Assembly (NCBI GenBank): GCA_030688615.1
Contig: JAUYIZ010000204.1
Location: 1-57,837 of the forward strand
DNA from: Desulfobacterales bacterium
Lineage (GTDB): Bacteria; Desulfobacterota; Desulfobacteria; Desulfobacterales; JAUYIZ01
DNA: 57,837 nt
Direction of reading: 5' to 3'
Shown here: positions 14,266 through 32,829 of the stretch, one piece after another
Layout of the letters: every line of letters begins with the position of its first letter
Position numbering within the stretch: the first letter of the stretch is position 1
Position numbers and translations under genes: made by a program
The notes under the pieces: generated by a model
What the model saw: the letters and a program-made list of their open reading frames with translations, nothing else
Databases searched by the model: none
What the model was told of the DNA's origin: nothing

Positions 14266-14475
14266 GATATATCAGCTTTGATTTATTTCATAAAACATTT
14301 ATAAAATATCAATAACGTGTAAAATTTTGGGTAAGGGGGCAAATATTATTAAGGAAACATGACAAAAAATGACGGGCATGTCAAGGTTAAACGGTATCCA
14401 CAATTCCGACATTGCTGTAGATGGAAGGGTTTTTTGATCGGCTATTGCCTCAAAAATCATGAGTGCAAAGCGACC

Positions 14476-16937: not shown

Positions 16938-16943
16938 AATTGC

Positions 16944-19448
16944 TTACTTCTTCAAACTCATCAAAAACTTCGTTATTTTCAAAACCGCCGGATCGCCCAG
17001 ATTATAACTGGGCTCCACGGCGCCGGGGACCATTCTTTGAGGATCCTTTACATGCATGAAGATATATCCAGGGCGAAGCCGACTGCCCACATGGGTAAGA
17101 TTCGGCCCCACACCTCCCCCGGCAGCCCCGATTTGATGACAAGCCTGGCAGCCTTTTTCCATGTAAAGCGCCCGGCCCTCGGCAGCATTGACATCTTCCA
17201 GCCTGATTTTCATTTCATATTCATCAGGAATATCGCTGGAAACGAGAACATTGGTAATATAATTGACAATAACAGCAATCTCATCATCAGAAAGATGGCC
17301 TCTGATCATCCCGATACTGCCACCAAGTTTAAACTTGGGCATCTGTTGGAGCATGGGGCGGATAATGTCAGGATTCTTTAAAAAATCTCTTAGCCACGCT
17401 ATTTGAACCTTGTCCCCCTCAATACTCAAATCCGGCGCGAAACCGCCGCCAACACCCTTGATTGTGTGGCAGGTCAGACACTTTAGCTCATTTTCAATCT
17501 TTGAAAAATCACCTGTAGGCTTATAATCCGATGGTATGTCCCGGACCTTATACTTCAACGGGACCTCCTCAGCCGTAAAGCCAAGGAGCATTATTACAAG
17601 AGAATCAATCTCTTTTTCATCAAAACCGAAATTCGGCATCAATAATCCATCTCTGAAAATCCTTGGTGATTTCAGCTTCATCCTTAAATAAGATTCCCTG
17701 TTCTTCACCTCACCGGCGATCCTGCCCCGATCAAATCTATCAAAGGGCTTTGTTCCAATAGATGAGATATCTGCGCCGATCTTATTAACCACATCCTTCT
17801 TTTTCAGGTAGGGTCCTATCTTAACCGCTTTCTCCATCCCTTTAATGTCATGACACCCAAAACAGCCATATTTCTCAATAAGACGGGCGCCGGCCTTTAT
17901 CTGCTGCTCGCCAATGCGCTCTTTCTTTTTCAGTTTTTTATCCTCTATGTCATAATCAATAAACTCACCCATTATATATTCCGCTAATGCATCGATCTCC
18001 CCATCTGTAAATCTAAATCTGGGCATGCGGGTTTTTGGGAAATAATTCTGCGGGTCCTTAAACCACTTCTTGAGCCATTCGATCCTGACTTTGCTTCCTA
18101 CCCTTGTTAAATCCGGTGCATAGATATCCTTAAATGCGCCCCCCTTGTTCTTGGCAGGATGACAGATACTGCATCTGGCCTCGCTAAATATAATCTTCCC
18201 CTTATCAGAAAGATTCCAATCAGGATCTTTTGCCGGCGCATCATCACGATAATCGGAATTTAGCTTAAAGAGATAATCTGCAATTGCCCCGCTCTCCTCG
18301 TCACTCAGGCCAAATTTTGGCATCCGTGCGGTTGGAAAAACACTTTTAGGATCCTTTATCCAGTTCTTCACCCAGGTGTAATTTACTTTTGTAGCCAAGC
18401 CGGAAAGAACCGGCCCAATCTTTGGCGTATCCTCATATCCGGCAATCTTGTGGCAGCCGTAGCATCCCTTGCGCTCAAGTGTCTTTATCCCAAATGAAAG
18501 GCCCTCCGCACCTCTCAACGCCTTTACATTTTCATGGCACACCAGACAGCTTGCTTGCACATTATTGCCTCTTAACATCGGGTGATCCCAATGTTTTACG
18601 TCTCCATGTCCCTTGCTTGCTGATGATGTCGCCCGGCCCTGTCCCCTGTGACAGGACGTGCATCCAAATTCTGAAATCGCATGCCTACCTAAAAAAAGCT
18701 CTTTTCCCGGATGCGCGGTAAAAGGTTCGTTGGAGGAAACCTTTTGGGTTTCATCAATACCGATATGACATGATTGGCACCTGTCCGTTCGTTCAAGGTC
18801 AGATAGGTGAATCTGTTTAATCTCAATCTTTTTAGTTGAAAAAAAAGCGCCCCGATTTTTTAGATTATCCATATCCGCCGTATAGTCATTAAGCTTTCTT
18901 TTCAGTTGATCAAGCGGAACGGTCGCCTTGGTAAGTATTGCCTTATAAGTCCCCCTGTTTGATTCAAGCTGCCTTATTTTTTTATCCAATATGGCAATCT
19001 CTCCTTCAAGTCCTGCCAGTCTTTTTTTCTCCTTTTCCTTACCATATTTAATGTAATTATATTCCGCCTCGAGGTACCTTGCGCGAACCATCTGAAATTC
19101 ATGACGAACCCGCTTAAGTTCGTCAGCGACACCCTCCAATTCCTTTTTGGTTTTTTTATATTCTGCTTGTAGTGCCGGCGACCCAAAATCCGCTTTTGCT
19201 TTCTCAAGCGCGCTTTTAAGACTTTTATATTCCTTCTGGACATGTGCGCTTGAAAATTCTGCAGTTCGATGCCCGAGCTGATCTTTGAGCTGCTCGACTA
19301 CCAGCTTATAGTATTTTTTTTGGTAATCCTTCCACGGGCGAAGGTTTTTAGTCTCCCAGCCAATTAACCATATGAAAGTGATGATCAAAAACAGAACAGC
19401 TATAAAGAAATGTAGCGCGTAAGATCTTTCCTCTTCCGTCTTTTTCAT
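16944..19448 (-). CDS. Octahaem c-type cytochrome with membrane anchor and coiled-coil stalk, bc-complex associated
   Basis: With ATG 19448 the protein has 834 residues. That ATG overlaps the upstream cytochrome b stop as ATGA, so longer starts at 19472 or 19460 are less likely. A single span (about 11-30) is followed by roughly 150 residues of heptad-like charged sequence (45-200, rich in KELE, DELKR, LEGEIA) predicted to form a coiled coil. Eight CXXCH motifs follow from about 224 to the C-terminus: CQSCH, CTSCH, CLVCH, CYGCH, CSICH, CFGCH, CLTCH, CQACH. Several domains end in RMPKF/RMPRF/LMPNF/QMPKF, giving Met ligands, so it looks like four to five fused class I cytochrome domains. It replaces cytochrome c1/f in the bc-type complex encoded directly upstream. 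Confidence 0.9.
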   Translation of the reverse strand: MKKTEEERSYALHFFIAVLFLIITFIWLIGWETKNLRPWKDYQKKYYKLVVEQLKDQLGHRTAEFSSAHVQKEYKSLKSALEKAKADFGSPALQAEYKKTKKELEGVADELKRVRHEFQMVRARYLEAEYNYIKYGKEKEKKRLAGLEGEIAILDKKIRQLESNRGTYKAILTKATVPLDQLKRKLNDYTADMDNLKNRGAFFSTKKIEIKQIHLSDLERTDRCQSCHIGIDETQKVSSNEPFTAHPGKELFLGRHAISEFGCTSCHRGQGRATSSASKGHGDVKHWDHPMLRGNNVQASCLVCHENVKALRGAEGLSFGIKTLERKGCYGCHKIAGYEDTPKIGPVLSGLATKVNYTWVKNWIKDPKSVFPTARMPKFGLSDEESGAIADYLFKLNSDYRDDAPAKDPDWNLSDKGKIIFSEARCSICHPAKNKGGAFKDIYAPDLTRVGSKVRIEWLKKWFKDPQNYFPKTRMPRFRFTDGEIDALAEYIMGEFIDYDIEDKKLKKKERIGEQQIKAGARLIEKYGCFGCHDIKGMEKAVKIGPYLKKKDVVNKIGADISSIGTKPFDRFDRGRIAGEVKNRESYLRMKLKSPRIFRDGLLMPNFGFDEKEIDSLVIMLLGFTAEEVPLKYKVRDIPSDYKPTGDFSKIENELKCLTCHTIKGVGGGFAPDLSIEGDKVQIAWLRDFLKNPDIIRPMLQQMPKFKLGGSIGMIRGHLSDDEIAVIVNYITNVLVSSDIPDEYEMKIRLEDVNAAEGRALYMEKGCQACHQIGAAGGGVGPNLTHVGSRLRPGYIFMHVKDPQRMVPGAVEPSYNLGDPAVLKITKFLMSLKK

Positions 19449-20347
19449 ATGTTGAACCATGGGGTCACCCAAATATATTTAATATGGAAGAGCAATCGAA
19501 GGAATATTTTAACAGGCAACCCAATCATAATCAGCAGCAGCCCTGAAACGATGAGATATCGTACCGGGCCAAGCGCTTTAAGGAATTTGCCGCCATGTCT
19601 CTGCATGTAAATATACGGAAGGACAACACCAACAGTGAAATATCCGAGGATCACAAATCCCCCCATAAGAAATCCGGCCAGAGAACGCGAGTCAATACTA
19701 AAGACCTGCGGCAAGTCCACATTGATCTCGGCTGTGACAACATGAGGGTCCCACTCCTGCCAGGGCCAGAACCATACCCAGCCGGGCCCCCGCATAAAAA
19801 CCCCAATAACGATTAATGATATCCACAGTACAAGAAAGCCAAAACAGAAGGTTGATATGGCAAATTTCCGCTCATGCCATGTATAGTATCCACTTCCTTT
19901 GGGATTCACATCGATATAGGGGATAATGCACAGGCCGATTACGATGAGAGTGGGCAGAAGCACACCTGCTATCCACGGATCGAAATAGACCAGTATCTCC
20001 TGCAGCCCCAAGAAATACCAGGGCGCCTTTGCAGGATTAGGTGTACGGGTAGGCGTGGCGAATTCCTCGAGAGGCGCATCAAGCACAACAGACCACATGT
20101 TCAGAAGCACCACTACAATTATTGCTACCAGGAACTCCTTGCGCACAAGGTAAGGCCAGGTGGGTATTTTATCCTCGACATCAGCCTTCTGTTGAGCCGA
20201 TACCCCCTCGGCCGCCTCCCTATTTCTTCTTCTGTCCCCGGAGATAGCATAATAAAAGGCTAAAATGGTGAAAAACAACACCATTATCATCATGACTACG
20301 ATGGCGACATTATCCGGTTTGCTTATGATCTCGATAAAATTTTTCAT
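19445..20347 (-). CDS. Cytochrome b, C-terminal subunit (subunit IV-like)
   Basis: Using ATG 20347, which overlaps the petB-like stop as ATGA, the protein has 300 residues. It has an N-terminal span, then [19 protein letters not shown], the equivalent of the quinol-site PEWYF motif, and three to four further spans. It would complete the Qo site of a split cytochrome b. The upstream frame to 20440 adds 31 polar residues with no family similarity and is rejected. Compared with a plain subunit IV (~160 residues), this one carries extra N- and C-terminal helices, as in bc complexes of deltaproteobacteria and Nitrospirota. Confidence 0.88.
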
Positions 20348-21108
20348 TGGGGGCCTGATATTCCTCCGTCTTTTCTTATGCGCCAGAAATGTACGATTAT
20401 TAAGAAAGAAGCAATGAGAGGAAGTCCAATGCAGTGCCATATATAGGCACGCAGCAAAGCGTTACTATCCACTGTGGACCCGCCAAGCAATGCGAACCTG
20501 ACGTCATTATATGCCGTCAGACCCAACTGCGGACCAAAGGGACCTTCATGTCCGAGAAAGGGCGTTGCACGGGCCATGTTGGTCCCGACCGTAATGGCCC
20601 AAAATCCCAGTTGGTCCCATGGCAGGAGATAGCCGGTGAAGCTCAGAAGCAGGGTAAGCACCAGAAGCATCACCCCAATAACCCAGTTAAACTCCCTGGG
20701 GGGCTTGTAGGATCCTGTCATAAACACCCTGAACATATGCAGCATAACCGTTATGACCATAAGGTGTGCCGCCCATCTGTGGATGTTTCGCAGGTACAGC
20801 CCAAAGGGAACGGTAAACTCCAGGTCCTTCATGTCCAGATATGCGTCACGGGTATTGGGGTGATAATAAAACATAAGCAAGATGCCGGAGATGGTAAGGA
20901 TCAGGAAAAGCAGAAATGTTATCCCTCCCATCCCCCAGGTGAACCCAAGCTTTACCGCACCGCGACTGATCCTCACAGGATGAAGATGCAAAAATACATT
21001 GCCGCGGATAGCAAGCACCCTCTCCTTCGGAGTATCCCCATAGCTTCTACGAAAGATGGATTTGCCAACCGGAGTTTGCCTGAACTTATCAAAAAATTTT
21101 TTTATCAT
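20344..21108 (-). CDS. Cytochrome b, N-terminal subunit (b6-like, two haems b)
   Basis: The 254-residue protein carries the haem-b ligands as paired His: [22 protein letters not shown] around residue 95-115 and, near the end, [43 protein letters not shown] is the conserved b-type quinol-site loop. It is the core of a quinol:cytochrome c oxidoreductase in the inner membrane. The start ATG 21108 is preceded by GGAGGG at good distance, preferred over GTG 21126. Downstream is the C-terminal subunit, upstream (51 bp) the Rieske gene. Confidence 0.9.
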
Positions 21109-21159
21109 AATAAGCCCTCCGATCACACAGATCCTGAGCAGATTTATTCCAAATTAAAA

Positions 21160-21693
21160 TCATACCTTCAAGATGCTGTCAGGGTAAAGTTCATCCGGGT
21201 CTTGGCCGGGGACACTTTTATAAATAACACTCTTATCAATAATAATATGTCCATCATCTCCAAGGGTTATCTTGTATCTATCCAGTGGCCGCGGCGCAGG
21301 ACCTTCAATATTAATGCCATTTCTCAGAAATCCGCTCCCATGACACGGGCATTTAAACTTATTCCTGGACGCTATCCAATTGGGCGTGCATCCAAGATGG
21401 GTGCAAACCGTGCTCAGGACAAACAATCTATTTTCATCATCTCTTACAATCCACACGCCATATTTGTTCTTAAACCTGGTATCAACCGTTCCCGGTGGAA
21501 ACTCTGAAGGCTTATCCACCTTAAACCTTGCCGGGGGCTCAAACAGAACCCTTGGGAAAAAAAACCTGGTAAGGGCAAGGGCGCTTCCCAGAAACAATGC
21601 GGCTATACCACCCCAGGCAGCCTTTAAAAAAAATCTTCTCCGGGAATCTTTTTTCGGTTCGTTTTGCGCTTGCTTTTTTTCTTTCTCATCCAT
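21160..21693 (-). CDS. Rieske [2Fe-2S] protein of the bc complex
   Basis: The 177-residue protein has a charged cytoplasmic N-terminus, a hydrophobic span with twin-arginine-like DSRRRFFLKAAWGGIAAL (about 17-34), and the cluster motifs CTHLGCTPNW and CPCHGSGF. It is therefore a membrane-anchored, probably Tat-exported high-potential 2Fe-2S protein. ATG 21693 with GAGG upstream is preferred over the GTG at 21699. The gene follows the copper-protein gene directly, and its stop is 51 bp before the cytochrome b start. It passes electrons from quinol to the octahaem cytochrome. Confidence 0.92.
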   Translation of the reverse strand: MDEKEKKQAQNEPKKDSRRRFFLKAAWGGIAALFLGSALALTRFFFPRVLFEPPARFKVDKPSEFPPGTVDTRFKNKYGVWIVRDDENRLFVLSTVCTHLGCTPNWIASRNKFKCPCHGSGFLRNGINIEGPAPRPLDRYKITLGDDGHIIIDKSVIYKSVPGQDPDELYPDSILKV

Positions 21694-21695
21694 TA

Positions 21696-22286
21696 TCACC
21701 TCAATTGAATTTTTATCTCTGTTGTTTCGCCGGCTTTAACAGTGACCTTCTCTTGATAGGGTCGTTTTTCCTCATGCCATGTCTTAAGCGAATACTGACC
21801 GGGTGGAATGTTGTTTATTGTAAACCTTCCGTCATTTCCGGTCTTGCTGAAATATGGATTAGACAATACAATGATAAATGCAGACATCTCAGTATGAACA
21901 TTACACAGTAAAGCGACCTTGCCTGCTTTATCGAAAGTCTGTTGTTTTATGGTATCTTTACCATATGTACCGAGGTTGAATTTCTTCGGTTTTGACGGTG
22001 AAAAAACATTATGCAGCACGGTATCGCTGTTGGCAAATTCAACGGTTGTGCCGACAAGTACAGGAAGGACATGCGGTATGAAAATAAGGTTCTTCTGATC
22101 TATCCTGAGATTGTTTGCCGGGGGTTTAAATGCGCCGGGAACATCTTCAAGATAAAGGACAACATCTGCAAACCGTCGTTCACGAAATATCTTGACTTCA
22201 CCACGAATAGTGCCCGTATTTTCATCTGCAAAAGCCGGTAATGCAATTAAAACAGCAACTATCAGAAAAAATATATTTTTAATCAT
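21696..22286 (-). CDS. Periplasmic plastocyanin-like copper protein with C-terminal beta-sandwich
   Basis: The 196-residue protein has a Sec signal (MIKNIFFLIVAVLIALPAFA). A cupredoxin-like domain follows with ligand candidates His in TVLHNVFSPSK, then Cys, His and Met in LLCNVHTEMSAFI, the classic type 1 copper set. The C-terminal part (FTINNIPPGQYSLKTWHEE) is a carboxypeptidase-regulatory-like beta-sandwich. Similar proteins are annotated as methylamine-utilisation or plastocyanin-like. It lies immediately upstream of the Rieske gene, so it could be an electron donor or acceptor of the bc complex. About 160 bp with a stable hairpin separate it from the cytochrome-porin gene upstream. Confidence 0.82.
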   Translation of the reverse strand: MIKNIFFLIVAVLIALPAFADENTGTIRGEVKIFRERRFADVVLYLEDVPGAFKPPANNLRIDQKNLIFIPHVLPVLVGTTVEFANSDTVLHNVFSPSKPKKFNLGTYGKDTIKQQTFDKAGKVALLCNVHTEMSAFIIVLSNPYFSKTGNDGRFTINNIPPGQYSLKTWHEEKRPYQEKVTVKAGETTEIKIQLR

Positions 22287-22337
22287 TGTTTTCCTTTATT
22301 GTTTTAGATTTGGTATATGGGCAAAAATAACAAACGG

Positions 22338-22368
22338 GGAAAGGAGCGCCACCAGGGCGCTCCCATTT
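22338..22368 (-). terminator. Intercistronic GC hairpin (attenuator or processing site)
   Basis: GGAGCGCC (22343-22350) pairs with GGCGCTCC (22356-22363), with outer GGAAA/TTTCC pairing. On the minus strand it is followed by TTTCCCC rather than a clean U tract. It lies between the cytochrome-porin and the copper-protein genes. It may allow higher expression of the porin than of the bc-complex genes downstream. Confidence 0.5.
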
Positions 22369-22446
22369 CCCAACTGCAAAGCGCTTTACTGAACAAATTC
22401 GTCGATTCGGCGGAAGCGCCCGATCCTGAGATCTACGCCGCATTAC

Positions 22447-23742
22447 CTAGAAAGCAAACATAATATTTAGCTTCGCTGTATCGTTGCCATCTTTGTCCTC
22501 CAGGTAGGTGTAATACTCCAAATTCCATCTAATATTGGCCCGCTGAAGAACGGTGAGATTGGCTACAACCGCTTCTACATCCTTATTCGACGTATTGTCA
22601 TCAAAAGACTTTTGTTCATAGCGAACATTAGCGATCAGCCATGGGAAGAATAGGTACTGTAAATCAACATTAAAGGCGGTGCTCTTTATATCCTTCCCTG
22701 CCGCCACCTCATCATTTCCAAAGACGACCGCACCTTCTATAGCAAGCCTGGAGTAACTTAACCTAAGGTCGGCTCCGAAACGGGTGTAATTTTCCTCAGT
22801 CGTCGCATTATTAGCACTGGGATAGCCAAAATAACCGAAGGTGCCCAACGTAATCGAGTCGTCCCTCCAATTATCCTTCTGAACCAACTCCCCTTTAGGT
22901 ATTCCACCGCTTCCATCAAGCCCCATTCCTCCAAGCTTAAAACCAACGCGATAAAACAAATCTTTAGCATCATTGCTATCCGTGTTATCTCCGCCGCCAT
23001 TGACAGCACCGAAAGCATATTCAAACCGGCTACCTAAAATCCCATTGAATTCCACACCGGACTGTTTAGTGCGAAGACTTTTATCAGCTCCCCCGCCGGC
23101 AACTGTATAATCAAAGGACATTGCGTGAGACGGGGTCAGCCGGTTGTCGTCTTTAAGCCCACGCGCGGCTCCGGTTTCAAACCTGCCGATTTTAAAGTTG
23201 AGCATACCCGGCGTGCTGCCAAGAAGGTCATTGAATTGAATATACATCGCTCCAAGCTTGTCTTTATCATTTGCAAATGACTTTTCATACAATATCCATT
23301 CGGCAAAAAATGAAATCCTTTCTCCCCAATTGCCACCAAAAAGCATCTCAAGTTCGTGAGGTGCATCAAAGTATGTGGCGCCTTCACTACTAGAAGCATC
23401 TTCTTTCCAAACAACTCTCTGGTGTCCGTAGAAACTGATCGGCACCGTTGCCGGAAGTAATCCCGGCCAAATTGCTTCCGGCCACACCTCTTTCCATGCC
23501 TCTGCACCCAGGGCAACGGGTTCTTCTTTTACAAATGCTTTGTCGCCGCCAGGCATCCGAAATCCAAGACGTCTGAAAGCATCCCCAAAGGCGTTTCTTT
23601 GGGGGATCGCAGTATGGCAAGTGCTGCACGATGTCTTGTATTTTCTGGCAAAGGTGGGTATAGCTTCGGCATTGCCGGAGAAAAACCCCACAAAAACCAG
23701 AGAGATTATCAATAAAAATACACATAGCATTACTTTTTTCAT
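22447..23742 (-). CDS. Outer-membrane fused cytochrome-porin (Cyc2-like)
   Basis: From ATG 23742 (strong AAGGAGG at proper distance) the product has 431 residues: a signal peptide to about Ala-27, then IPTFARKYKTSCSTCHTAIP with one haem-c motif at 39-43. The rest alternates aromatic/polar residues in strand-length segments and ends in LNIMFAF, an outer-membrane beta-barrel terminus. A short N-terminal haem segment plus porin is the architecture of Cyc2-type iron oxidases and related electron conduits; the TFAR-x-C-x2-CH opening fits. The frame is open upstream to GTG 23859, but that start overlaps a Shine-Dalgarno-like element. Electron entry or exit across the outer membrane is inferred; the donor is not. 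Confidence 0.8.
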   Translation of the reverse strand: MKKVMLCVFLLIISLVFVGFFSGNAEAIPTFARKYKTSCSTCHTAIPQRNAFGDAFRRLGFRMPGGDKAFVKEEPVALGAEAWKEVWPEAIWPGLLPATVPISFYGHQRVVWKEDASSSEGATYFDAPHELEMLFGGNWGERISFFAEWILYEKSFANDKDKLGAMYIQFNDLLGSTPGMLNFKIGRFETGAARGLKDDNRLTPSHAMSFDYTVAGGGADKSLRTKQSGVEFNGILGSRFEYAFGAVNGGGDNTDSNDAKDLFYRVGFKLGGMGLDGSGGIPKGELVQKDNWRDDSITLGTFGYFGYPSANNATTEENYTRFGADLRLSYSRLAIEGAVVFGNDEVAAGKDIKSTAFNVDLQYLFFPWLIANVRYEQKSFDDNTSNKDVEAVVANLTVLQRANIRWNLEYYTYLEDKDGNDTAKLNIMFAF

Positions 23743-23843
23743 CTGTGATTCCTCCTTATCACTTATTATTCCTTTCTTTTTTTTAGTTCTAATAAGTTTC
23801 ATTATCAATTTCCACAATAATTCTAACGCACTGCAACTAAAAT

Positions 23844-23866
23844 GCTTTTCGGATGTCACCTCCTTT
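23844..23866 (-). promoter_or_regulatory. Conserved leader with perfect anti-Shine-Dalgarno match, copy 1
   Basis: On the minus strand the leader reads AAAGGAGGTGACATCC followed by GAAAAGC, 23 bases identical to 28616-28638. It lies about 70 nt after the predicted sigma-54 promoter and about 100 nt before the cytochrome-porin ATG. No ATG or properly spaced GTG/TTG follows the AAGGAGGTGA, so it is not an ordinary ribosome binding site. Confidence 0.6.
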
Positions 23867-23936
23867 CTTTGGCTTTGATTGAGCTGAAACCTAAATAAGT
23901 ATTATGAGGTATTGCCTGGCACATTAGGGGAATCTA

Positions 23937-23950
23937 GCAAAAACCGTGCC
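23937..23950 (-). promoter_or_regulatory. Sigma-54 promoter for the cytochrome-porin/bc operon
   Basis: The minus strand reads GGCACGGTTTTTGC, a full GG-N10-GC element (-24 GGCAC, -12 TTGC). Transcription should start near 23925, about 185 nt before the porin ATG. The same spacing to the leader and the upstream inverted repeat is kept in copy 2. Confidence 0.8.
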
Positions 23951-24142
23951 TTAGGTGACATGAGGGCAAATTTTGTTTTAACTAACTGTAATTACATTAT
24001 TTTTATAAGATGAGCAAAGAGAATAGAAAGCAAAGGAAGGCGACAAAAAGGCCGCGGCGAGTAACCACGGAGAGGATATGCTGAGTTAGATAAGACCATA
24101 GCCTATTGATATGATAATATATATCGTCATAACGCCATTTAT

Positions 24143-24158
24143 GTCGCGCATGTGTGAC
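24143..24158. promoter_or_regulatory. Inverted-repeat activator site (UAS), copy 1
   Basis: GTCGC-GCATGT-GTGAC is an inverted repeat with one mismatch to the perfect copy at 28912-28927. It lies about 190 bp upstream of the sigma-54 promoter, the usual position of an enhancer for an NtrC-type activator. A conserved AAATGTCACC follows and may be a second half-site. Confidence 0.65.
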
Positions 24159-24234
24159 CTAAATGTCACCAAGGAAGGCATAGGGGGTCATGCTTTACGC
24201 CGAGGCGCGGGGGTCTCATACAAATCGGCAGCAG

Positions 24235-24903
24235 TTAGTCCTGCGTTTCACCTCGATCGAGTCGTAAGAATGGCAACACGCCTTGTGCGGTTTCAATGGG
24301 CTCCAGCGTAATGGTTGATCCCCTTTTGATTGCTACGTCGGGTTTATCTTGTAAGCGGCGAATCCAACCGCTGTCTCCGGGAAGTTCCCATTTTAACTTG
24401 TATGATCCCTCAGGAAGATTGTTGAACCGGTATTTGCCGTCTTTATCGGTAAGGGTCTTGTATTCTTCTTCTTTGACTTCCAAATACATACCAAAAGTTT
24501 TTTTCATCCGGACAAGCTTGACCTTGCAGCTCTGTATTCCCTTGCCCCTTAGAAGGATGACACCTTCGGCGTTTCCAACTCTATCTGACCTGGATTGTGA
24601 TTTTGGTTGAGGTTGTGAGTCTAATTGGGTCAGAATTTCCTTGTCAATTTCATTTTTCATTTTGTTGGAAATGACCGGCGCCGGAGTTTTGGCCGGGGGC
24701 CCCACGACTTCTGGAGTTTCAGCGGCTTGTTGGACGCGTAACTCGGCCAGGATTTCCTGCTTTAATTTTTCCCTGTCCTGTAATTCCGCCATGATTTCGC
24801 GCCGGATCTCTTCTTTCATACGATCCCTTGCGATATTGCTGCTCATGCAGCCGTTAATTGCTAAGACACAAAAAAGCAGCCATCCAAATTTAAAATATTT
24901 CAT
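24235..24903 (-). CDS. Outer- or inner-membrane lipoprotein with coiled coil and carboxypeptidase-regulatory-like domain
   Basis: The 222-residue protein starts with a lipoprotein signal ending LAINGCMSSN. A strongly charged helix follows at about 28-60 (RMKEEIRREIMAELQDREKL), likely a coiled coil, then a Pro-rich linker, and a C-terminal beta-sandwich (DGKYRFNNLPEGSYKLKWELPG). That last motif resembles the end of the plastocyanin-like protein at 21696. No haem or copper motif is visible. It is the last gene of the cupredoxin/NosR-like operon, preceded by AAGGAGAAAGG. A structural or assembly role in the electron-transfer complex is a guess. Confidence 0.7.
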   Translation of the reverse strand: MKYFKFGWLLFCVLAINGCMSSNIARDRMKEEIRREIMAELQDREKLKQEILAELRVQQAAETPEVVGPPAKTPAPVISNKMKNEIDKEILTQLDSQPQPKSQSRSDRVGNAEGVILLRGKGIQSCKVKLVRMKKTFGMYLEVKEEEYKTLTDKDGKYRFNNLPEGSYKLKWELPGDSGWIRRLQDKPDVAIKRGSTITLEPIETAQGVLPFLRLDRGETQD

Positions 24904-24953
24904 TGTTCCTTTCTCCTTAGGGTTAAATAAATTGCTTTTTCCCTTCTTACAAC

Positions 24954-25340
24954 CTACTCAACAATCAGTGTTCCTCTCATTTGCATATGATAATCACTAC
25001 ACCACACCGAACAGTAAAAAGGATATTTTCCCGCTTCATCAATGGTAAAGGTAACCTTTTCAAGCTCTCCGGCCTTGATTTCCTTCACCCGGATGCCCAA
25101 TAGCGGTACAATAAAACCATGTGATGTTACGTCCACATTCCTGATCATTAGCGTTATTTCTTTGCCTTTTTTGATCTTGATAGTTTGTGGAGAAAAATTG
25201 CCTTTTTCAGGCGCTTGCGCGCTGAGTTGAACCGTGTTGGCTTGCTTTAAAATTGATTGGTGAGAAAAAGCCGCCCAAACGATGACTATCGGACAAATGA
25301 TAACCAGCAATACGGCAATAATCTCCTGTTTAGGCATCAT
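24954..25340 (-). CDS. CuA-type cupredoxin, CoxII-like, without a CoxI partner
   Basis: The 128-residue protein has one N-terminal span (about 7-25) and a cupredoxin domain ending in the CuA motif CSVWCSDYHMQM (C110, C114, H118, M121) with the upstream His in VTSHGF. This is the soluble domain of cytochrome oxidase subunit II of the short, one-span type (ba3-like), or of related CuA electron carriers. There is no subunit I, NosZ or nitric oxide reductase nearby, so it probably serves as a dinuclear-copper relay. It starts 3 bp after the NosR-like gene ends and is co-transcribed with it. Confidence 0.85.
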   Translation of the reverse strand: MMPKQEIIAVLLVIICPIVIVWAAFSHQSILKQANTVQLSAQAPEKGNFSPQTIKIKKGKEITLMIRNVDVTSHGFIVPLLGIRVKEIKAGELEKVTFTIDEAGKYPFYCSVWCSDYHMQMRGTLIVE

Positions 25341-25343
25341 AGG

Positions 25344-27224
25344 CTAACCCACAAATAACCGGATAAAAAATATATGGATGCCGATCAAAAAGATCAGCAT
25401 GGGGATCCAGCCTCTCTTTGCTTGAGCCGGTGTGGCGTATGTCTGTAAGGAAAACTTAAAACCATATTCTAAAGAGAACAGCAACCCTATGATAATCACA
25501 AATATCTGAAAATAACTTGTCGCTCCGGTAAAAAAAGGAGTCCATGGAAAGCTTGCCGTGCCGAACAGATCCCACCCCCATGCAAAAGGGTCGGAGAGAA
25601 TATGCAGAATATAGCTTCCATTAGGCAGAATGATGCCAATGCTGAAAGCCGCCCATATCGCCACTCCGACGGCAACAAGGCAATAAGAAAAATTAACAAA
25701 TACTTCCTTGAGTTTAACTCCTTTATCTCCGCTTAATTTCTTGGATAAAAAAGCGAATAAACAGAATAACGCAGGAATAATCAAAAAGTCTACTAAAGCA
25801 GCTTCAGCGATATAGGTAAAATATCCTCCAAGCGATGTGGCCCTTAACATATCCTTGAATTGGCCGGAGGTTCCCTGGAAAGCATAATAAAATACGAAGA
25901 AAATCCCGATCATTGTTAAGGCCTTAAATGCCTCATCAGTACTCCGTCTTTGATACAGCTCATCAGTCGACCTGCGCGCAGACATAAAGTCTGTGCCAAA
26001 AGGCCTCAGGTTAAAAGCCATGTTATCATGGGGGCATGTCTTAAAACACTCTAAACACATCCCGCAATACGTATTGCGGTTCATATCATAAGGCAGTTCC
26101 ATCCAGGGGCAACCATAGCCCTTTTCATTGCCCACCAAACAAGTCTTAGGTTTGTGCTTTTGACAGATATCCGGATTTTTCACACGAACTTCACAAAGAG
26201 AAAAATTGGCATATAGCCCCTGAAAACCGCTTACCGGACATATGAAGAGACAGAAAGATCTTTTCCCATATACCAGCGCAATGATGGTCGCTGTCCCAAA
26301 GATTATCGAGAGGAAGATAAATGTTGCAAATGGCCTGACGGTAAAGAAGCCGGAAAACCAGGTCGAGATAAAAAACAGAATAACCAATGACCATAGATTG
26401 CGCATCCTGCCAGGCCATCTTTTATTTAATCCCCGTGACTTCTGCCTTCCAACGCTGATTAGTTTTCCGCGCTGAAACCAATCGCCAAAAAGGGGAAATG
26501 GGCATACCATGCACCAAAACCGCCCAATGAACGGAACCATAAATAGCATCAGGAGAACCCACCAGAGAATCCAGACGATCATGATGCCGAAATTATAATT
26601 GCCGGCCGAAGAAAAACCGCCGACAAAAGCTGCCAAGAGGATGATAGTAAACACAATAATATTAATCAGGATGGCTATGAAGGGAAACCAGCGGCTCTTA
26701 AATAGAGCGCGGACGGGTTTGAATCTGGTTAACTCAAATCTCCAACTGAGTGGAATGACCCAAAAGAGCTTATCCCGGGGACTGCCTTTTCCTTTCAGGG
26801 TGAGTACCAATGAACCGATTCCAAGTATAACGACCAGGAATATTCCGGAATAGTAGTTCCAATTGGGTAAGACTCTCAGATACCCCACCATGTATGGATG
26901 AAACTCACCGCACGTTTTTGAACAACGAAAAGTAAACCTTCCTGTTTTGTCTGCTTCGATGGTAACCTTTTTCCACTCACCGGGATGAACATGAACTTCG
27001 GTGCCGTACCCATCCAGAAAGAATCCATGGGTGACATCCATACTGATGAGTTTCAGATCAATTCGGTCACCTTTATTGACGGTAATAACACTCGGAGAAT
27101 AGGAATATCTTTTTGCCCTTAATTCTATACTTCTTTCTTTGCCGGTAGAACCTTGCGAATTAGCGCACAAAAAGAAACTTGCGCACAATGTGATCACTGC
27201 CAATACAAGCAGGGACTTTTTCAT
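25344..27224 (-). CDS. Cupredoxin fused to NosR/NapH-like polyferredoxin membrane protein
   Basis: The 626-residue product (ATG 27224, GGAG upstream) begins with a signal sequence and a CuA-type cupredoxin domain: His-66 in VTHGF, and CSKTCGEFHPYM with C101, C105, H109 and M112. About ten membrane spans follow. Within them are WCMVCPFP and FCLFICPVSG, the paired CxxxCP/CxxCP motifs of NosR/NapH proteins, and a ferredoxin-like region CGMCLECFKTCP (CX2CX2CX3CP) plus a second set of Cys ending GYGCPW. NosR and NapH normally lack a periplasmic copper domain of this kind; NosR has FMN-binding instead. Electron transfer between a cytoplasmic-side FeS pair and a periplasmic CuA centre is the likely role. 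Confidence 0.85.
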   Translation of the reverse strand: MKKSLLVLAVITLCASFFLCANSQGSTGKERSIELRAKRYSYSPSVITVNKGDRIDLKLISMDVTHGFFLDGYGTEVHVHPGEWKKVTIEADKTGRFTFRCSKTCGEFHPYMVGYLRVLPNWNYYSGIFLVVILGIGSLVLTLKGKGSPRDKLFWVIPLSWRFELTRFKPVRALFKSRWFPFIAILINIIVFTIILLAAFVGGFSSAGNYNFGIMIVWILWWVLLMLFMVPFIGRFWCMVCPFPLFGDWFQRGKLISVGRQKSRGLNKRWPGRMRNLWSLVILFFISTWFSGFFTVRPFATFIFLSIIFGTATIIALVYGKRSFCLFICPVSGFQGLYANFSLCEVRVKNPDICQKHKPKTCLVGNEKGYGCPWMELPYDMNRNTYCGMCLECFKTCPHDNMAFNLRPFGTDFMSARRSTDELYQRRSTDEAFKALTMIGIFFVFYYAFQGTSGQFKDMLRATSLGGYFTYIAEAALVDFLIIPALFCLFAFLSKKLSGDKGVKLKEVFVNFSYCLVAVGVAIWAAFSIGIILPNGSYILHILSDPFAWGWDLFGTASFPWTPFFTGATSYFQIFVIIIGLLFSLEYGFKFSLQTYATPAQAKRGWIPMLIFLIGIHIFFIRLFVG

Positions 27225-27229
27225 TATCT

Positions 27230-27958
27230 TTACTCCAGGATTAACGTCCGTAAAATGGCGATGGATTTTCTTGAAAAAGTCTCTAATTTTTCTCCATCCC
27301 AAACCGCAAAGGCTATTTTTAATCTTTTCGAATGCATAAATTCAAACTCATCTTTCTGTTGTTTCGCTCGCTTTCTAACGAATAATACTTTCCATCCGCC
27401 TTTAGCATAGCTCCCTTGACCCAACACGTTCTGATTTTCCATCGGTTTCTGAGTCGTAGGGCCATGGGCTACGAATTCTCTAACCACATCTATTTTTTTT
27501 GCATCTCTTAACGCGGACCATCGCCATATGTTAGCGATACTTTCAAAACCCATCATTTGCGCGGAAGCAGGGGAGTTTGCCGGAACAAAAAGAATGGCGC
27601 AATAATCAGGTGTTTTCAAACCTATCCGATTTTCCGTTTCATCTGCATACTCGATTAAAAAAGCGATATCCTCTTTGTTATATATTCCCTTAACATTTAT
27701 TTTTCTTTCATATTTCCCAAAAGCTGTTCTTACAGATTGTGGGAAAAGCGGCAGAGTAACAGGTTGTATGTCATGCCAAATTTTATTATCAAGCGAAAGC
27801 GTAATCTTTTGATCCACTGAAAAAACGGTAAAACTCTCTCCTTTTTCCAGTGTGTCGGGTATTTTATAAATATAATGGTAAAGTATCACAAAATAAATGG
27901 CGGCAACCAATAGAGCAGCCGTCGTAGTGACCCCCATTATTTTATGGTGTTTTTTCAT
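27230..27958 (-). CDS. Membrane-anchored ethylbenzene-dehydrogenase-type haem-b protein
   Basis: The 242-residue protein has an uncleaved N-terminal anchor (about 10-32). Its periplasmic domain matches the EB_dh/DMSO-reductase-type gamma subunit family: NVKGIYNKEDIAFLIEYADETEN, QMMGFESIANIWRWSALRD and a late IAFAVWDGEKLE. The Met in the MMGF segment and a downstream Lys are the usual axial haem-b ligands in this family. Normally such subunits pair with a molybdopterin alpha and an iron-sulfur beta subunit; neither is present here. It ends 5 bp before the NosR-like start. A strong terminator precedes it, so its expression may depend on read-through. Confidence 0.8.
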   Translation of the reverse strand: MKKHHKIMGVTTTAALLVAAIYFVILYHYIYKIPDTLEKGESFTVFSVDQKITLSLDNKIWHDIQPVTLPLFPQSVRTAFGKYERKINVKGIYNKEDIAFLIEYADETENRIGLKTPDYCAILFVPANSPASAQMMGFESIANIWRWSALRDAKKIDVVREFVAHGPTTQKPMENQNVLGQGSYAKGGWKVLFVRKRAKQQKDEFEFMHSKRLKIAFAVWDGEKLETFSRKSIAILRTLILE

Positions 27959-27980
27959 TGGCGATTATTAGAATCCAATT

Positions 27981-28017
27981 AAAAAAAGCCGGTTCGTTCA
28001 AAAACAGGCCCGGCTTT
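27981..28017 (-). terminator. Rho-independent terminator after the cupredoxin gene
   Basis: On the minus strand AAAGCCGG (28017-28010) pairs with CCGGCTTT (27992-27985), followed by TTTT to 27981. It lies between the cupredoxin and the haem-b gene. It would make the cupredoxin the most abundant product, with partial read-through into the membrane genes. Confidence 0.8.
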
Positions 28018-28039
28018 ATTAGGAATTAAATTCAATGTA

Positions 28040-28555
28040 TTAACTAGATGGAACTGAGAATATGATAGCTCTCATGGTTGGATCATGATGATCACAACGT
28101 AAAGTATAGTATCCGGCCTGTTTGGCCTTGAAAGTTATAATGTACTCTCGTCCTCGATTCGAAATATGTTCTTTTACTGCAACCGTGCCATCCGGGGCTT
28201 CTACCCAGTTAATATGTTTGTCGCCATTTACTACAAAAATACGGAGGGTGACCGTGTCTCCTTGATTGACCGCCATGGCCGCCGGATTGAACATATAAGT
28301 TGACACTTGCCATTTATTAGGCTTGGCCGGATCGTATTTTCCCGGTGGCGTAAAACCATAGCCTTTGGAAAGTGTGGTGGGATCCGTTTTGGGCGCAGGA
28401 ATACCATCAGTTGCACCCTTGACTTCTATCTCGGATACATAAAAAGTAACATTGCCGGGTTTTAGCCCCTTGGCTGCCGCACTTCCCGGACCAACTGCCA
28501 ATATGGCAGTGACAAGTAAGAGCAACAAGAGGATTAAAGAATTACGAATTTTCAT
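28040..28555 (-). CDS. Periplasmic cupredoxin (type 1 copper)
   Basis: The 171-residue protein has a cleavable signal (MKIRNSLILLLLLLVTAILA). The cupredoxin fold carries MAVNQGDTVTLRIFVVNGDKHINW and a C-terminal ligand cluster LRCDHHDPTMRAII, giving Cys, His and Met; the fourth His is probably in GDKHINW. The Cys-x2-His-x3-Met spacing suits a type 1 site rather than CuA. It is the first gene after the copy-2 sigma-54 promoter and is followed by a terminator, suggesting high expression as a soluble carrier between the outer-membrane cytochrome-porin and the inner-membrane proteins. That route is inferred. Confidence 0.85.
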   Translation of the reverse strand: MKIRNSLILLLLLLVTAILAVGPGSAAAKGLKPGNVTFYVSEIEVKGATDGIPAPKTDPTTLSKGYGFTPPGKYDPAKPNKWQVSTYMFNPAAMAVNQGDTVTLRIFVVNGDKHINWVEAPDGTVAVKEHISNRGREYIITFKAKQAGYYTLRCDHHDPTMRAIIFSVPSS

Positions 28556-28631
28556 TAAATGCCTCCTTTTCTAAATCAATCTCCATAATAATTCTATCAC
28601 CATAGCAACAAAAATGCTTTTCGGATGTCAC
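28542..28631 (-). other. Possible 29-codon leader reading frame overlapping the cupredoxin start
   Basis: A GTG at 28631 within the conserved leader opens a frame MTSEKHFCC... of 29 codons that stops at 28542, 14 bases inside the cupredoxin gene. The same first seven residues are encoded in copy 1 but there the frame is continuous with the cytochrome-porin. The GTG overlaps the Shine-Dalgarno sequence, so translation from it is doubtful. Confidence 0.25.
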
Positions 28632-28638
28632 CTCCTTT
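28616..28638 (-). promoter_or_regulatory. Conserved leader with perfect anti-Shine-Dalgarno match, copy 2
   Basis: Identical over 23 bases to 23844-23866. It lies about 60 nt before the cupredoxin ATG, which has its own AAGGAGG site, so two Shine-Dalgarno elements stand in tandem. Confidence 0.6.
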
Positions 28639-28704
28639 GACTTTGTTTGAGTCAAAATTCAATTGGGTATTATCGGTTTTGCATAGTGTATCAGGAAGAG
28701 TAAT

Positions 28705-28718
28705 GCAAAAGCCATGCC
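28705..28718 (-). promoter_or_regulatory. Sigma-54 promoter for the cupredoxin/NosR-like operon
   Basis: The minus strand reads GGCATGGCTTTTGC, with GG-N10-GC spacing and TTGC at -12. It is 67 nt upstream of the leader motif and about 195 bp downstream of the inverted repeat, matching copy 1. Confidence 0.8.
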
Positions 28719-28911
28719 TCAGGTGAAATGATGGTAAATGTAGTTTTAATTAACTGTATTTACGTTATTTTTATAAGATTGGGAAAAGATAATAGAAAGC
28801 AAAAGAAGGCGACCAAAAGGCCGTGGTGAGTAACCACGGAGAGGATATTCTGAGTTATATAAGACCATAGCATATTGATATAATTATATATATCGTCATA
28901 ACGCCACTTAT

Positions 28912-28927
28912 GTCGCGCATGTGCGAC
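28912..28927. promoter_or_regulatory. Inverted-repeat activator site (UAS), copy 2
   Basis: GTCGC-GCATGT-GCGAC is a perfect inverted repeat with 5-base arms. It touches the stop codon of the activator gene (28928). Together with copy 1 it is the best candidate for the binding site of that activator. Confidence 0.7.
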
Positions 28928-30301
28928 CTAAATGTCACCCAGGAGAGGTTCCCAGCGGGGGTCATTCTTCATCAGGGCTATTTTTCTCTGGACCTGTCTT
29001 AGCGAAATTCCCAATATTTGTGCCGTCTCTTTGCGGTTGCCCTTCGTATGGGCGAGGACAAAAGCGAAATGCGCGGTTGCGTCTTCCTTAAGACTGCAGA
29101 GTTTTCGGGTAAATGAAGGAACTGAAACATATGCCATACCCCCCAGATGTTGCGGTAAAATTAGTCCTGATTCGGCCAGGAGCACTGCATTTTCCACCAA
29201 GGCGGCCAGTTCGCGAATATTACCATGGTATTCTTTGCGGGTCAGTATATCCATGGCCTCAGGGCTGAAGCCGCTCACTGCCTTATCATGCTTCATGCAT
29301 GCTTTTTTTTGAAAATAGGCGGCCAGAAGGGGAATATCGCCTTCCCTTTCTCGAAGGGGAGGGAGATGGATGTGGGCTGCTCTCAGCCGGTATAACAAAT
29401 CCAGCCTGAATCTGCCTTCCTGGCAGGCCTTGTCCAGATCCTGATTCGTTGCGGAGATGATGCGGACGTTAATATGAATAGGAGTCGCATCCGATAAACG
29501 GCGGATAGATTTTTCCTCAATCACGCGCAGAAACTTGGCTTGCAGGTTCAGGGAAAGCTCTCCGATTTCATCCAGAAACAATGTCCCGCCATTGGCTTGC
29601 TCAAAGAAACCGGCGTGATCCTTCTCGGCTCCTGTAAAGGCCCCTTTGATATGTCCGAAAAACTGGCTCTCAAAGAGCGTCTCCGGAATGGAAGATACAT
29701 TCAACGCAATAAAAGGAGCATCTGACGTCGAGTTTAACCGATGGATAGCGCTGGTCATTAACTCCTTGCCGGTTCCCGACTCACCGCTAATCATGATCGG
29801 ATTGCCGCTCCGGGCCATTACCGCTGCATAGGAAAGTATTTCTGCCATCCTTGGGCACTGGGTGACAATCTTTGAAAAGGCCTCGGGTATTTCAACCGCA
29901 TGACTACCGGTACGCGCTCCCGCCAAACCGACAAGAAGACCTTTGTGTTCATAGGCCCGTTCGATTGATAATATGAGACGTTCGCTCTCTACGGGTTTAA
30001 CAAGATAATCGTAGGCGCCGAGGCGAACGGCCTTGACTGCTGTCGCAATATCATCCACTGCTGTCAGAAAGATAAACTCGGTGCGGGGTTTGAAAGGTTT
30101 CGTGGCCACAAGGACCTGAAGACCATCCACTTCAGGCATCAGCAGGTCCAGAAGCACAATGTCAAAATCCTTATTCTTGATCCTGTCGATCGCATCCTTG
30201 CCATTGTTACAGAGCTCTACATTCGGGATACCCCGCCGTTTAAGCAAACGCCTCATCGAATTCAAGGCAACCACTTCATCATCAACAGCTAAAATTATCA
30301 T
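28928..30301 (-). CDS. NtrC-family sigma-54-dependent response regulator
   Basis: The 457-residue protein has an N-terminal receiver (ILAVDDE, phospho-acceptor Asp in DIVLLDLLMPEVDG near residue 53, KPVE at ~103). An AAA+ domain follows with Walker A GESGTGKELM near 175, the sigma-54 contact loop GAFTGA near 238, and GGTLFLDEIGEL. A C-terminal Fis-type helix-turn-helix (GNRKETAQILGISLRQVQRKI) closes it. All motifs needed to activate sigma-54 RNA polymerase are present. It overlaps the upstream kinase by 4 bp, so kinase and regulator are a cognate pair. Two GG-N10-GC promoters with a shared inverted repeat lie just downstream, making it the likely controller of the whole island. Confidence 0.93.
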   Translation of the reverse strand: MIILAVDDEVVALNSMRRLLKRRGIPNVELCNNGKDAIDRIKNKDFDIVLLDLLMPEVDGLQVLVATKPFKPRTEFIFLTAVDDIATAVKAVRLGAYDYLVKPVESERLILSIERAYEHKGLLVGLAGARTGSHAVEIPEAFSKIVTQCPRMAEILSYAAVMARSGNPIMISGESGTGKELMTSAIHRLNSTSDAPFIALNVSSIPETLFESQFFGHIKGAFTGAEKDHAGFFEQANGGTLFLDEIGELSLNLQAKFLRVIEEKSIRRLSDATPIHINVRIISATNQDLDKACQEGRFRLDLLYRLRAAHIHLPPLREREGDIPLLAAYFQKKACMKHDKAVSGFSPEAMDILTRKEYHGNIRELAALVENAVLLAESGLILPQHLGGMAYVSVPSFTRKLCSLKEDATAHFAFVLAHTKGNRKETAQILGISLRQVQRKIALMKNDPRWEPLLGDI

Positions 30302-32694
30302 AGTCTTTGCCTGCCGATAGTGTTTATTATTTCAAGCAATTGCTGCATCTTGACTGGTTTTTGAAGAAAATAATCAGCCGCAGAAATGCTGTCGGGCTTT
30401 TGTTTAGCGGCCTTCACTTTGCTCGCATTTCCAGAATAGAGAATAATTGCAAGCAAAGGGAATTCCACCTTGATTTTTTCAATGAGAGCACAACCGTTTA
30501 TGCCGGGCATCATGATATCTAATAGAACAATATCAACTTCAGGGTGATTCTCCAGGTATGCCACAATATTTTCGGGCTTGTTCTTTGTTTTCGTCGACAT
30601 ATTCCGGACTTTAGCAAAGTGTGCCTTGAGCAGGCCGAAAAAGGCAGCATCATTATCCAGGCATAAAATTGCAGGACAAAGCTCCAATTTTCTTTTACTG
30701 TCAACCGGAAGATACAAAGAAAAGCGGGTGCCAAATCCCGGTCGTGACAGAACCCCTATTACCCCATTGTGTTCATGGATCAACCCATAGGATACAGAAA
30801 GGCCCAATCCCGTTCCGCCAGTATCGCGTTTGGTGGTAAAAAATGGCTCAAAGATCCGCTCAATCACCTCAGGTACCATGCCGATGCCATTGTCTTCGAT
30901 CTCGATCAAAACCGATCCGAGCCTGACAACGTGGCGGGTACGTATCGAAAGTTTACCCTTGTCCTTTTCAGGAATGGCTTGAATGGCATTGATGATAAGA
31001 TTGATCATTACTTGCTCAAGTTTCTGGAAGTATCCTTGAATTAGCGGCAGATTGGGGTCTAATTTCATTTTTAGCTTGCCCACGGATTGCCTCACTTGCG
31101 CCCCGACAATGGCCAGTGCTTTTTCAATCACCGCATTAACATCAACCGGTTGGAACTGGATGCTTTGATCCAAGCGGGCAAAATCCTTTAGGTTGGAGAC
31201 AATTTTACTAATCCGATCCGATCCGATCTTGATTTCCTGTATTAATTCTCGCATGTCTCCACACAGCTCTTCAATATCGAAACCGGAGATTTTTAACTGC
31301 GGGTTTGCAGTCGCATATTCTGAAACCAGCGGTTCAAACATCTGCCAGGTTTCTTCTAAGATGGGCACATCGTAAGTGATAAAACTATTCGGGTTGTTTA
31401 TCTCATGCGCCACGCCTGCCACCACCTCTCCCAGCGAGGCAAGCTTGTCGGCCTGAATGACCTGCTTTAGACGATATTCAGATTCCCATCGAAGCTTTTC
31501 TTCCTCGGTGATGTCGCGGGCAATGCCGCGATATCCGCTGAGTTGCCCACTGGAATCAAAGATGGGAACGCCGCTGGTCTCAAGGGTGATCAATTTGCCT
31601 TCCTTATGAATATTAATATTCTTTAATTTCGAGAATGGCTTCTGAGAGTCGACTATCGCATGGAACGCCAACCTGATAGATTTTGCCTCATCAATTGGCA
31701 TAAAATCGAATGGTGTTTTGCCAATAACCTCTCCAGGTTCATATCCTAAGAAGTCCCTGACTTTGGGGCTGGCATATGTGTACATGATATTTGCATCCAC
31801 TTCCCAAATCCAGTCACTCGTGCTCTCGGTTAAAGCTTGAAACCTTTCTCCGCTTTTCCGCAGTTTATCCTCAATATGCTTGCGGTTGTTGATTTCCTGA
31901 ATTAATTGTTCATTTGTTTTGCCCAATTCTGTGGTGCGTTCTTTCACTCGTTGCTCAAGTGTGTCCCGGGCGTTTCTTACCTCCTCTTCCGCCTTTTTCC
32001 GCCTGGCAACATCCTGAGCGCCTTTGGCCAAAAGAAAAATAATCACTCCTAACATAATGATAGTTACGGTTGATAATATAACCCGGGAACGCAGTAATAA
32101 TTTATCGAGCCTTTCTTTTTTTTGGCTATAATCATAATAGATTTCTAAAACACCTATGATCGCATCATTCACGATTATCGGCACGTATGTTTCAAACACA
32201 TCCGCTATAACGCGTTGGCCTTCAAGAGATTGGGTATCCTTTTTCCTGATCCTCGTATAAACGGACCCTTTTACAACAACCTCGTAAAAATATCTGTTTG
32301 TGTGCATGGTGCCAATATCTTCAGGATCGGTAGAATATATGGTTTCGCCGGATTTTGAGAATATTTGCAATTTCATCAATCCCAATTCCCTTGAAAGCTT
32401 CGCCAGCTCGCCTGTCACCCGAGTTGATAGGGAAGCGCGGGACAATTCAATCTTTTTCTGAGGGATACGAGTATGAGTGATAAGATTTGCTATCTTGAGG
32501 ATTTCTTCTTCTGAATTCTTTATTATCATCCTGGTAAAGGCCGGGTATATTAACAGAACATCGGTAATCAGCAATATGGCGGCAATTATTATTGATGCAA
32601 CAAGGATATTCCTTAAAATTTTAATCTTAAACACTTCTATAAAATTTGCTGTACCCCTGGTTAACTTTTTCTTCATTGCTCCCGCAACAGACAT
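30298..32694 (-). CDS. Hybrid sensor histidine kinase 2 (periplasmic sensor-PAS-HisKA-HATPase-REC)
   Basis: The 798-residue kinase has two spans (about 27-50 and 200-222) flanking a ~150-residue periplasmic sensor with IYSTDPEDIGT and YVPIIVNDAIIGVLEIYYDY, typical of single-Cache-like sensors. Next come a coiled linker, a PAS domain near 285-400 (WIWEVDANIMYTYASPKVRD), the H-box VAGVAHEINNPNSF, the ATPase domain (IEDNGIGM, GTGLGLSVSYG) and a receiver with VDIVLLDIMMPGINGC. The catalytic half is nearly the same as kinase 1 at 14476, down to the QRL C-terminus, while the sensor halves differ. It is the first gene of the island. ATG 32694 has GAAGGG at good distance. The signal is unknown. Confidence 0.92.
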   Translation of the reverse strand: MSVAGAMKKKLTRGTANFIEVFKIKILRNILVASIIIAAILLITDVLLIYPAFTRMIIKNSEEEILKIANLITHTRIPQKKIELSRASLSTRVTGELAKLSRELGLMKLQIFSKSGETIYSTDPEDIGTMHTNRYFYEVVVKGSVYTRIRKKDTQSLEGQRVIADVFETYVPIIVNDAIIGVLEIYYDYSQKKERLDKLLLRSRVILSTVTIIMLGVIIFLLAKGAQDVARRKKAEEEVRNARDTLEQRVKERTTELGKTNEQLIQEINNRKHIEDKLRKSGERFQALTESTSDWIWEVDANIMYTYASPKVRDFLGYEPGEVIGKTPFDFMPIDEAKSIRLAFHAIVDSQKPFSKLKNINIHKEGKLITLETSGVPIFDSSGQLSGYRGIARDITEEEKLRWESEYRLKQVIQADKLASLGEVVAGVAHEINNPNSFITYDVPILEETWQMFEPLVSEYATANPQLKISGFDIEELCGDMRELIQEIKIGSDRISKIVSNLKDFARLDQSIQFQPVDVNAVIEKALAIVGAQVRQSVGKLKMKLDPNLPLIQGYFQKLEQVMINLIINAIQAIPEKDKGKLSIRTRHVVRLGSVLIEIEDNGIGMVPEVIERIFEPFFTTKRDTGGTGLGLSVSYGLIHEHNGVIGVLSRPGFGTRFSLYLPVDSKRKLELCPAILCLDNDAAFFGLLKAHFAKVRNMSTKTKNKPENIVAYLENHPEVDIVLLDIMMPGINGCALIEKIKVEFPLLAIILYSGNASKVKAAKQKPDSISAADYFLQKPVKMQQLLEIINTIGRQRL

Positions 32695-32829
32695 GTCTAT
32701 TTCCCTTCTGTTTTGACAACAGGGCCGCCGGTTTTGTCCGCTAATCAGGTCGTCTTTGTTTTTTATCTAAGGCGGCCAAGCCGCGAAAGAATTTATCATA
32801 AAATATAGTTGGCAGGTATGGGTTTTTCT

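Follow-up and report, generated by a model that had tools for sequence, protein, structure and literature searches.

A duplicated sigma-54 promoter cassette and its predicted NtrC-type activator at two electron-transport operons of a Desulfobacterales bacterium

Genes and promoter modules at the locus

All genes around the two promoter modules described here lie on the minus strand of the window, by which we mean the whole analyzed stretch of 57,837 nucleotides (Table 1). The hybrid histidine kinase HK1 is followed by an NtrC-family response regulator with a REC domain, an AAA+ sigma-54 interaction domain containing GAFTGA and a Fis-type helix-turn-helix (HTH). As the original prediction held, this activator ends at the inverted repeat of the second module, which its gene touches. 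The regulator scored far below all NCBIfam equivalog cut-offs (AtoC, NtrC, ZraR, GlrR, LuxO and others), its best equivalog score being that for AtoC, at 363 of 714 bits.

The operon under copy 2 (operon A) contains genes for a 171-aa cupredoxin, a 242-aa ethylbenzene-dehydrogenase-gamma-like protein, a 652-aa protein in which a NosZ/COX2-like cupredoxin is fused to a 4Fe-4S membrane protein, a 128-aa cupredoxin and a 222-aa lipoprotein-like protein. Operon B, under copy 1, comprises genes for a porin-like protein with CxxCH (431 aa), a 196-aa protein, a Rieske protein, a split cytochrome b, an 8-heme cytochrome c, a small cytochrome c and a second kinase, HK2. Operon B encodes a Rieske/split cytochrome b/multiheme cytochrome c complex, and the best match of its cytochrome b is ExtP, at a score slightly under the cut-off (264.5 of 290 bits). 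HK1 and HK2 are 83% identical in DNA over 1139 nt of their kinase-REC halves (dS 0.53, dN 0.12). Their sensor parts differ, and no regulator gene adjoins HK2. Because the kinase-REC half is common to both proteins, HK2 could plausibly supply feedback input to the regulator. Elsewhere in the genome, L129 (G000:C305) carries a second cupredoxin/4Fe-4S protein (37% identical) together with a homolog of the 196-aa protein; no activator site was found at this paralogous cluster. The G+C content from ~14000 to 32700 is 41–49% (mostly 43–46%), lower than the 52–58% of the flanks, which suggests that the signaling and electron-transport stretch is an acquired island.

Upstream of the two operons, a block of ~370 bp is present twice, as copy 1 (~24198–23797, minus strand) and copy 2 (~28972–28568, minus strand). 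Blocks of the two copies are 83–97% identical, with 91% identity over 165 nt. A genome-wide search with the ~370-bp module returned exactly these two copies, both in the window, and no third. Two modules with a shared repeat, promoter and leader had been predicted; they are real duplicates and lie where they had been placed (23844–24170 and 28616–28937), although they reach slightly beyond both intervals. Each also contains, downstream of the activator sites, the expected GG-N10-GC element as a sigma-54-type -24/-12 promoter (AGGCACGGTTTTTGCT and AGGCATGGCTTTTGCA), and an rpoN gene is present in the genome (PF04552 at G000:C75, E = 1.4e-61). In the shared leaders, AAAGGAGGTGA matches the anti-16S sequence almost perfectly, and a conserved start codon is absent at the usual distance from it. 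A conserved leader peptide was unsupported, as downstream reading frames differ between the copies.

Table 1 Features of the two modules and their surroundings (positions in the window)
Feature	Position	Strand	Remarks
Hybrid histidine kinase HK1 (PAS, kinase, REC)	30298..32694	-	Overlaps regulator start
NtrC-family response regulator, 457 aa	28928..30301	-	Pfam REC, Sigma54_activat, HTH_8
Copy 2 activator site 1, GTGACATTTAGGTCGC	28923..28938	-	Predicted; matrix rank 1; overlaps regulator stop codon
Copy 2 activator site 2, GCGACATAAGTGGCGT	28901..28916	-	Predicted; rank 7; 22 bp from site 1
Copy 2 IHF-like site, TATCAATATGCTA	28868..28880	-	1 mismatch; offset as in 11 of 18 modules
Copy 2 activator site 3, ACGGCCTTTTGGTCGC	28809..28824	-	Predicted; rank 5; 92 bp from site 2
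Copy 2 sigma-54 promoter, AGGCATGGCTTTTGCA	28704..28719	-	GG 106 bp from site 3 start; predicted start ~28693
Copy 2 shared leader, AAAGGAGGTGACATCCGAAAAGCATTTTTGTTGC	28605..28638	-	97% identical to copy 1; 83% to pre-porin stretch of G195
Operon A, under copy 2	24235..28555	-	~4 kb, cupredoxin operon
Decayed relic of regulator 3' coding end	24170..24198	-	Upstream of copy 1 site 1; from alignment of copies
Copy 1 activator site 1, GTGACATTTAGGTCAC	24154..24169	-	Predicted; rank 2
Copy 1 activator site 2, GCGACATAAATGGCGT	24132..24147	-	Predicted; rank 4; 22 bp from site 1
Copy 1 IHF-like site, TATCAATAGGCTA	24099..24111	-	1 mismatch; offset as in 11 of 18 modules
Copy 1 activator site 3, GCGGCCTTTTTGTCGC	24040..24055	-	Predicted; rank 3; 92 bp from site 2
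Copy 1 sigma-54 promoter, AGGCACGGTTTTTGCT	23936..23951	-	GG 105 bp from site 3 start; predicted start ~23926
Copy 1 shared leader	23833..23866	-	84% over 44 nt to REC-porin gap of G195, E = 2e-8
Operon B, under copy 1	14476..23742	-	Porin/cytochrome operon
Hybrid histidine kinase HK2 (HAMP, PAS, kinase, REC)	14476..16539	-	End of cytochrome operon; HK1 paralog

Activator sites, their spacing and register

The regions downstream of orthologous regulator genes were searched for YGAC-N6-GTCR, with the spacing left free. An array follows the regulator in 9 of 13 relatives: two palindromes lie 21–22 bp apart, with a third 90–92 bp further on, and one of the nine arrays (L125) is partial, consisting of the last two of the three palindromes. 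The motif unit is the palindrome RYGAC-N6(AT-rich)-GTCRY, of which each module has three. A matrix built from 26 ortholog-locus sites, with the window sequence excluded, ranked the six window sites 1, 2, 3, 4, 5 and 7 of 57,822 positions; copy 2 site 2 scores low (11.9). The window arrays reached three-site scores of 52.4 and 48.7, whereas none of 100 order-1 Markov windows exceeded 3.4, so the array is not a product of chance. Rank 6 fell to a lone site-like palindrome, ACGACTATGAGGTCGC (14470–14485), which overlaps the HK2 stop codon; no partner sites were found for it, and ~0.1 such sites per window are expected by chance.

Geometry was compared over 18 modules. The steps are 21–22 bp, 90–92 bp and then, measured from where site 3 begins to the -24 GG, 104–106 bp, the last in 15 of the 18 (the exceptions being 85, 92 and 181 bp). 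Outside the sites, the window modules match the other modules at a fraction of 0.23–0.42 of positions in an ungapped count; with spacer identity of only 23–42%, the constant geometry is not simply inherited sequence. Sites were also scored against the integration host factor (IHF) consensus WATCARNNNNTTR from a Geobacter sulfurreducens study (PMC7962754), allowing at most one mismatch. An IHF-like site lies 56–57 bp before site 3 in 11 of the 18 modules, while any other unrelated offset in the spacer between sites 2 and 3 gave at most one such match; each window copy has its IHF-like site with one mismatch. Activator sites shared by both promoters had been predicted, and this is supported; the inventory was incomplete, having missed the third site ~92 bp downstream and the IHF-like site. 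Between site 3 and the promoter, the tract ATCTTATAAAAATAa is near-identical in both copies (23980–24011 and 28749–28780) and in the relative G195 (L114), and is perhaps a second bending site.

The similarity of 83–91% between the copies could instead reflect a recent neutral duplication that left only one copy as an active promoter. Physical duplication is indeed evident from the regulator-tail relic and the shared leader. However, both copies keep three sites, the IHF-like site and the promoter at the order-wide geometry, and identity between them is uneven, at 91% in the site array and 97% in the shared leader core and lower in the promoter-to-leader stretch. We consider a merely neutral duplication improbable.

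The inverted repeat originally noted, GTCGC-N6-G(C/T)GAC, is present in both copies, but its register did not hold: it is made up of the inner halves of the adjacent palindromes of sites 1 and 2. The corrected palindromes, GTGAC-ATTTAG-GTCRC and GCGAC-ATAART-GGCGT, are shifted from it by 11 bp. Binding of the activator to the noted repeat, as a single dyad per promoter, would accord with the perfect dyad symmetry of copy 2 and with the absence of the repeat from the rest of the genome. Yet the spacing of the GTCGC and GCGAC halves varies in orthologs, whereas that within RYGAC-N6-GTCRY is always 6 bp, and isolated third sites occur only in the RYGAC-N6-GTCRY form. Because the spacer within the palindrome is constant in orthologs and that between palindromes varies, the functional repeat is almost certainly the shifted palindrome, and the single-dyad reading is very improbable. 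It is scarcely credible that the element, a duplicated non-coding block with a shared leader, is a mobile (MITE-like) promoter or functions as RNA, for example as a riboswitch leader, as it has just two genomic copies and no terminal inverted repeats were seen, the sites and promoter account for its conserved parts, and an Rfam scan of the window returned one tRNA and nothing else, hence no riboswitch match in the module region.

The regulator and its cassette in other genomes

Among 292 genomes of the same order, orthologs of the regulator were found in 13 other genomes at 55–78% identity, the next class of proteins being at 43%, and a class-level sample returned the identical ortholog set. 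Orthologs have in common the recognition helix and a C-terminal tail not seen in the next-best paralogs. A histidine kinase gene precedes the regulator in nearly all relatives, so that the kinase-regulator order is kept.

The tandem-site pattern occurred in 12 of the 14 genomes with the regulator and in 6 of the 278 without it (Fisher p = 2.5e-15, a value that ignores kinship and therefore overstates the independent events). In those six genomes, the sites are mostly without the outer consensus bases. Full arrays with sigma-54 promoters are not confined to the neighborhood of the regulator gene: G160, G193, G207 and G229 have them elsewhere, and the genes behind these arrays include those for receiver-domain proteins, CheW and chemoreceptors. 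Extra three-site cassettes were seen in relatives at L130, L131, L132, L133, L159, L160 and L135, several of them in G229 alone, upstream of genes of these and other kinds. No array was found beside the regulator gene in G160 and G193, and a full array was absent from G111, which has a regulator ortholog. Single strong-looking sites in L136–L140 and L127 were discarded, being without partner sites or promoter, and a whole-module DNA search of 58 relatives gave one AT-rich chance match beside ribosomal protein genes. As the cassette of the relatives mainly serves receiver and chemoreceptor genes, its physiological role differs in the window.

Within the 4.78 Mb of the window's own genome, GTCGC-N6-GYGAC occurs at only two places, both within the modules. 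Loose searches with 2–3 mismatches gave counts no higher than a reversed-pattern control, so no additional target can be claimed in this genome. No further target was found at best-site level in the 93%-complete assembly, which fits the compact regulon that had been proposed. The accompanying proposal, that one NtrC-type activator acts on the two sigma-54 promoters through shared upstream sites and so drives two operons, is well supported by the array behind orthologs, by arrays in trans and by the near-confinement of the pattern to regulator-bearing genomes.

Proposed control, history and comparison with known systems

We assign a probability of roughly 0.85 to the reading that HK1 and the response regulator control both electron-transport operons by way of the duplicated sigma-54 cassette. 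The phosphorylated regulator would bind the three RYGAC-N6-GTCRY palindromes, two in tandem two helical turns apart and the third ~92 bp nearer the promoter. A bend at the IHF-like site between sites 2 and 3 would probably bring the sites together, and the AAA+ hexamer would assemble and contact the sigma-54 polymerase 105 bp further on, with transcription expected from the predicted starts. The pair may sense an electron-acceptor or redox condition and switch both operons on together. More tentatively, at somewhat below even odds, the cassette could be a rigid nucleoprotein machine with the hexamer geometry fixed in DNA, requiring three regulator dimers and one IHF bend at 22, 92 and 105 bp. 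Such a cassette would spread as a unit capturing operons, namely chemoreceptor genes in relatives and respiratory operons in the window.

The closest ortholog (78%) is in G195, where the order is histidine kinase, regulator, array, promoter, receiver gene and a porin homolog that is 69% identical to the porin of the window. The shared window leader matches the stretch directly before this porin gene. Upstream of site 1 in copy 1 lies the regulator-tail relic, a match equaled in score by 10 of 2000 shuffles. From this arrangement, we infer that copy 2 holds the ancestral position behind the regulator. Loss of the receiver gene would have given the order regulator-array-promoter-leader-porin, and duplication of the stretch from regulator tail to leader would have produced copy 1 at the time when operon A moved in between the copies or was captured there. 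Operon A would then lie between two tail-to-leader copies, as a single-crossover integration or a tandem duplication would leave it. Because copy 1 keeps the regulator-tail relic and the leader matches pre-porin sequence, the 4-kb cupredoxin operon probably entered between the duplicated promoter modules. The 652-aa protein shows 62–66% identity with homologs from Omnitrophota, Aminicenantes and others and only ~40% with those of its own order; being closer to other phyla, it fits acquisition of operon A. As a route to relatives this protein was rejected, the clusters in Omnitrophota and other phyla being without the regulator and the homologs in its own order being so distant.

To our knowledge, neither binding site nor target is known for most NtrC-type activators. 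For this undescribed activator group, comparison of 14 genomes reveals site, geometry, promoter and regulon, and sequence alone suffices to match the regulator with its targets, giving predictions that are precise and cheaply testable. Sigma-54 enhancers are usually regarded as distance-tolerant; with a spacing that hardly varies although the DNA has strongly diverged, the cassette allows a direct test of the geometry in which the activator assembles on its enhancer. Insertion between duplicated promoter modules, as proposed for the window, is likely one way for an operon to become part of a regulon.

The window system resembles NtrC, AtoC and ZraR in the order REC-AAA+(GAFTGA)-Fis HTH, the paired kinase, the upstream sites and the -24/-12 promoters, and differs from them in its palindrome and its three fixed sites. 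NorR, which has a GAF domain and senses NO, has three enhancer sites upstream of the sigma-54 promoter at norVW. The three predicted sites of the window modules resemble these in layout only, as the regulator has REC instead of an N-terminal GAF domain and the spacings differ. For Desulfovibrio vulgaris, the main text of the sigma-54 regulome study (PMC4641369) describes numerous two-component activators that have one upstream site or several, and a promoter consensus of tGGcacg/tTGCt; the GTCG/CGAC motif string is absent from that text, and the activator-promoter distances given there vary, unlike those of the window cassette. At IHF-assisted RpoN promoters of Geobacter sulfurreducens, the IHF consensus lies between the activator sites and the promoter (PMC7962754), whereas the IHF-like site of the window occupies a constant offset within the spacer that separates activator sites 2 and 3. 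The system belongs to a well-known kind, and what sets it apart is the constant three-site geometry and the duplicated, apparently captured promoter.
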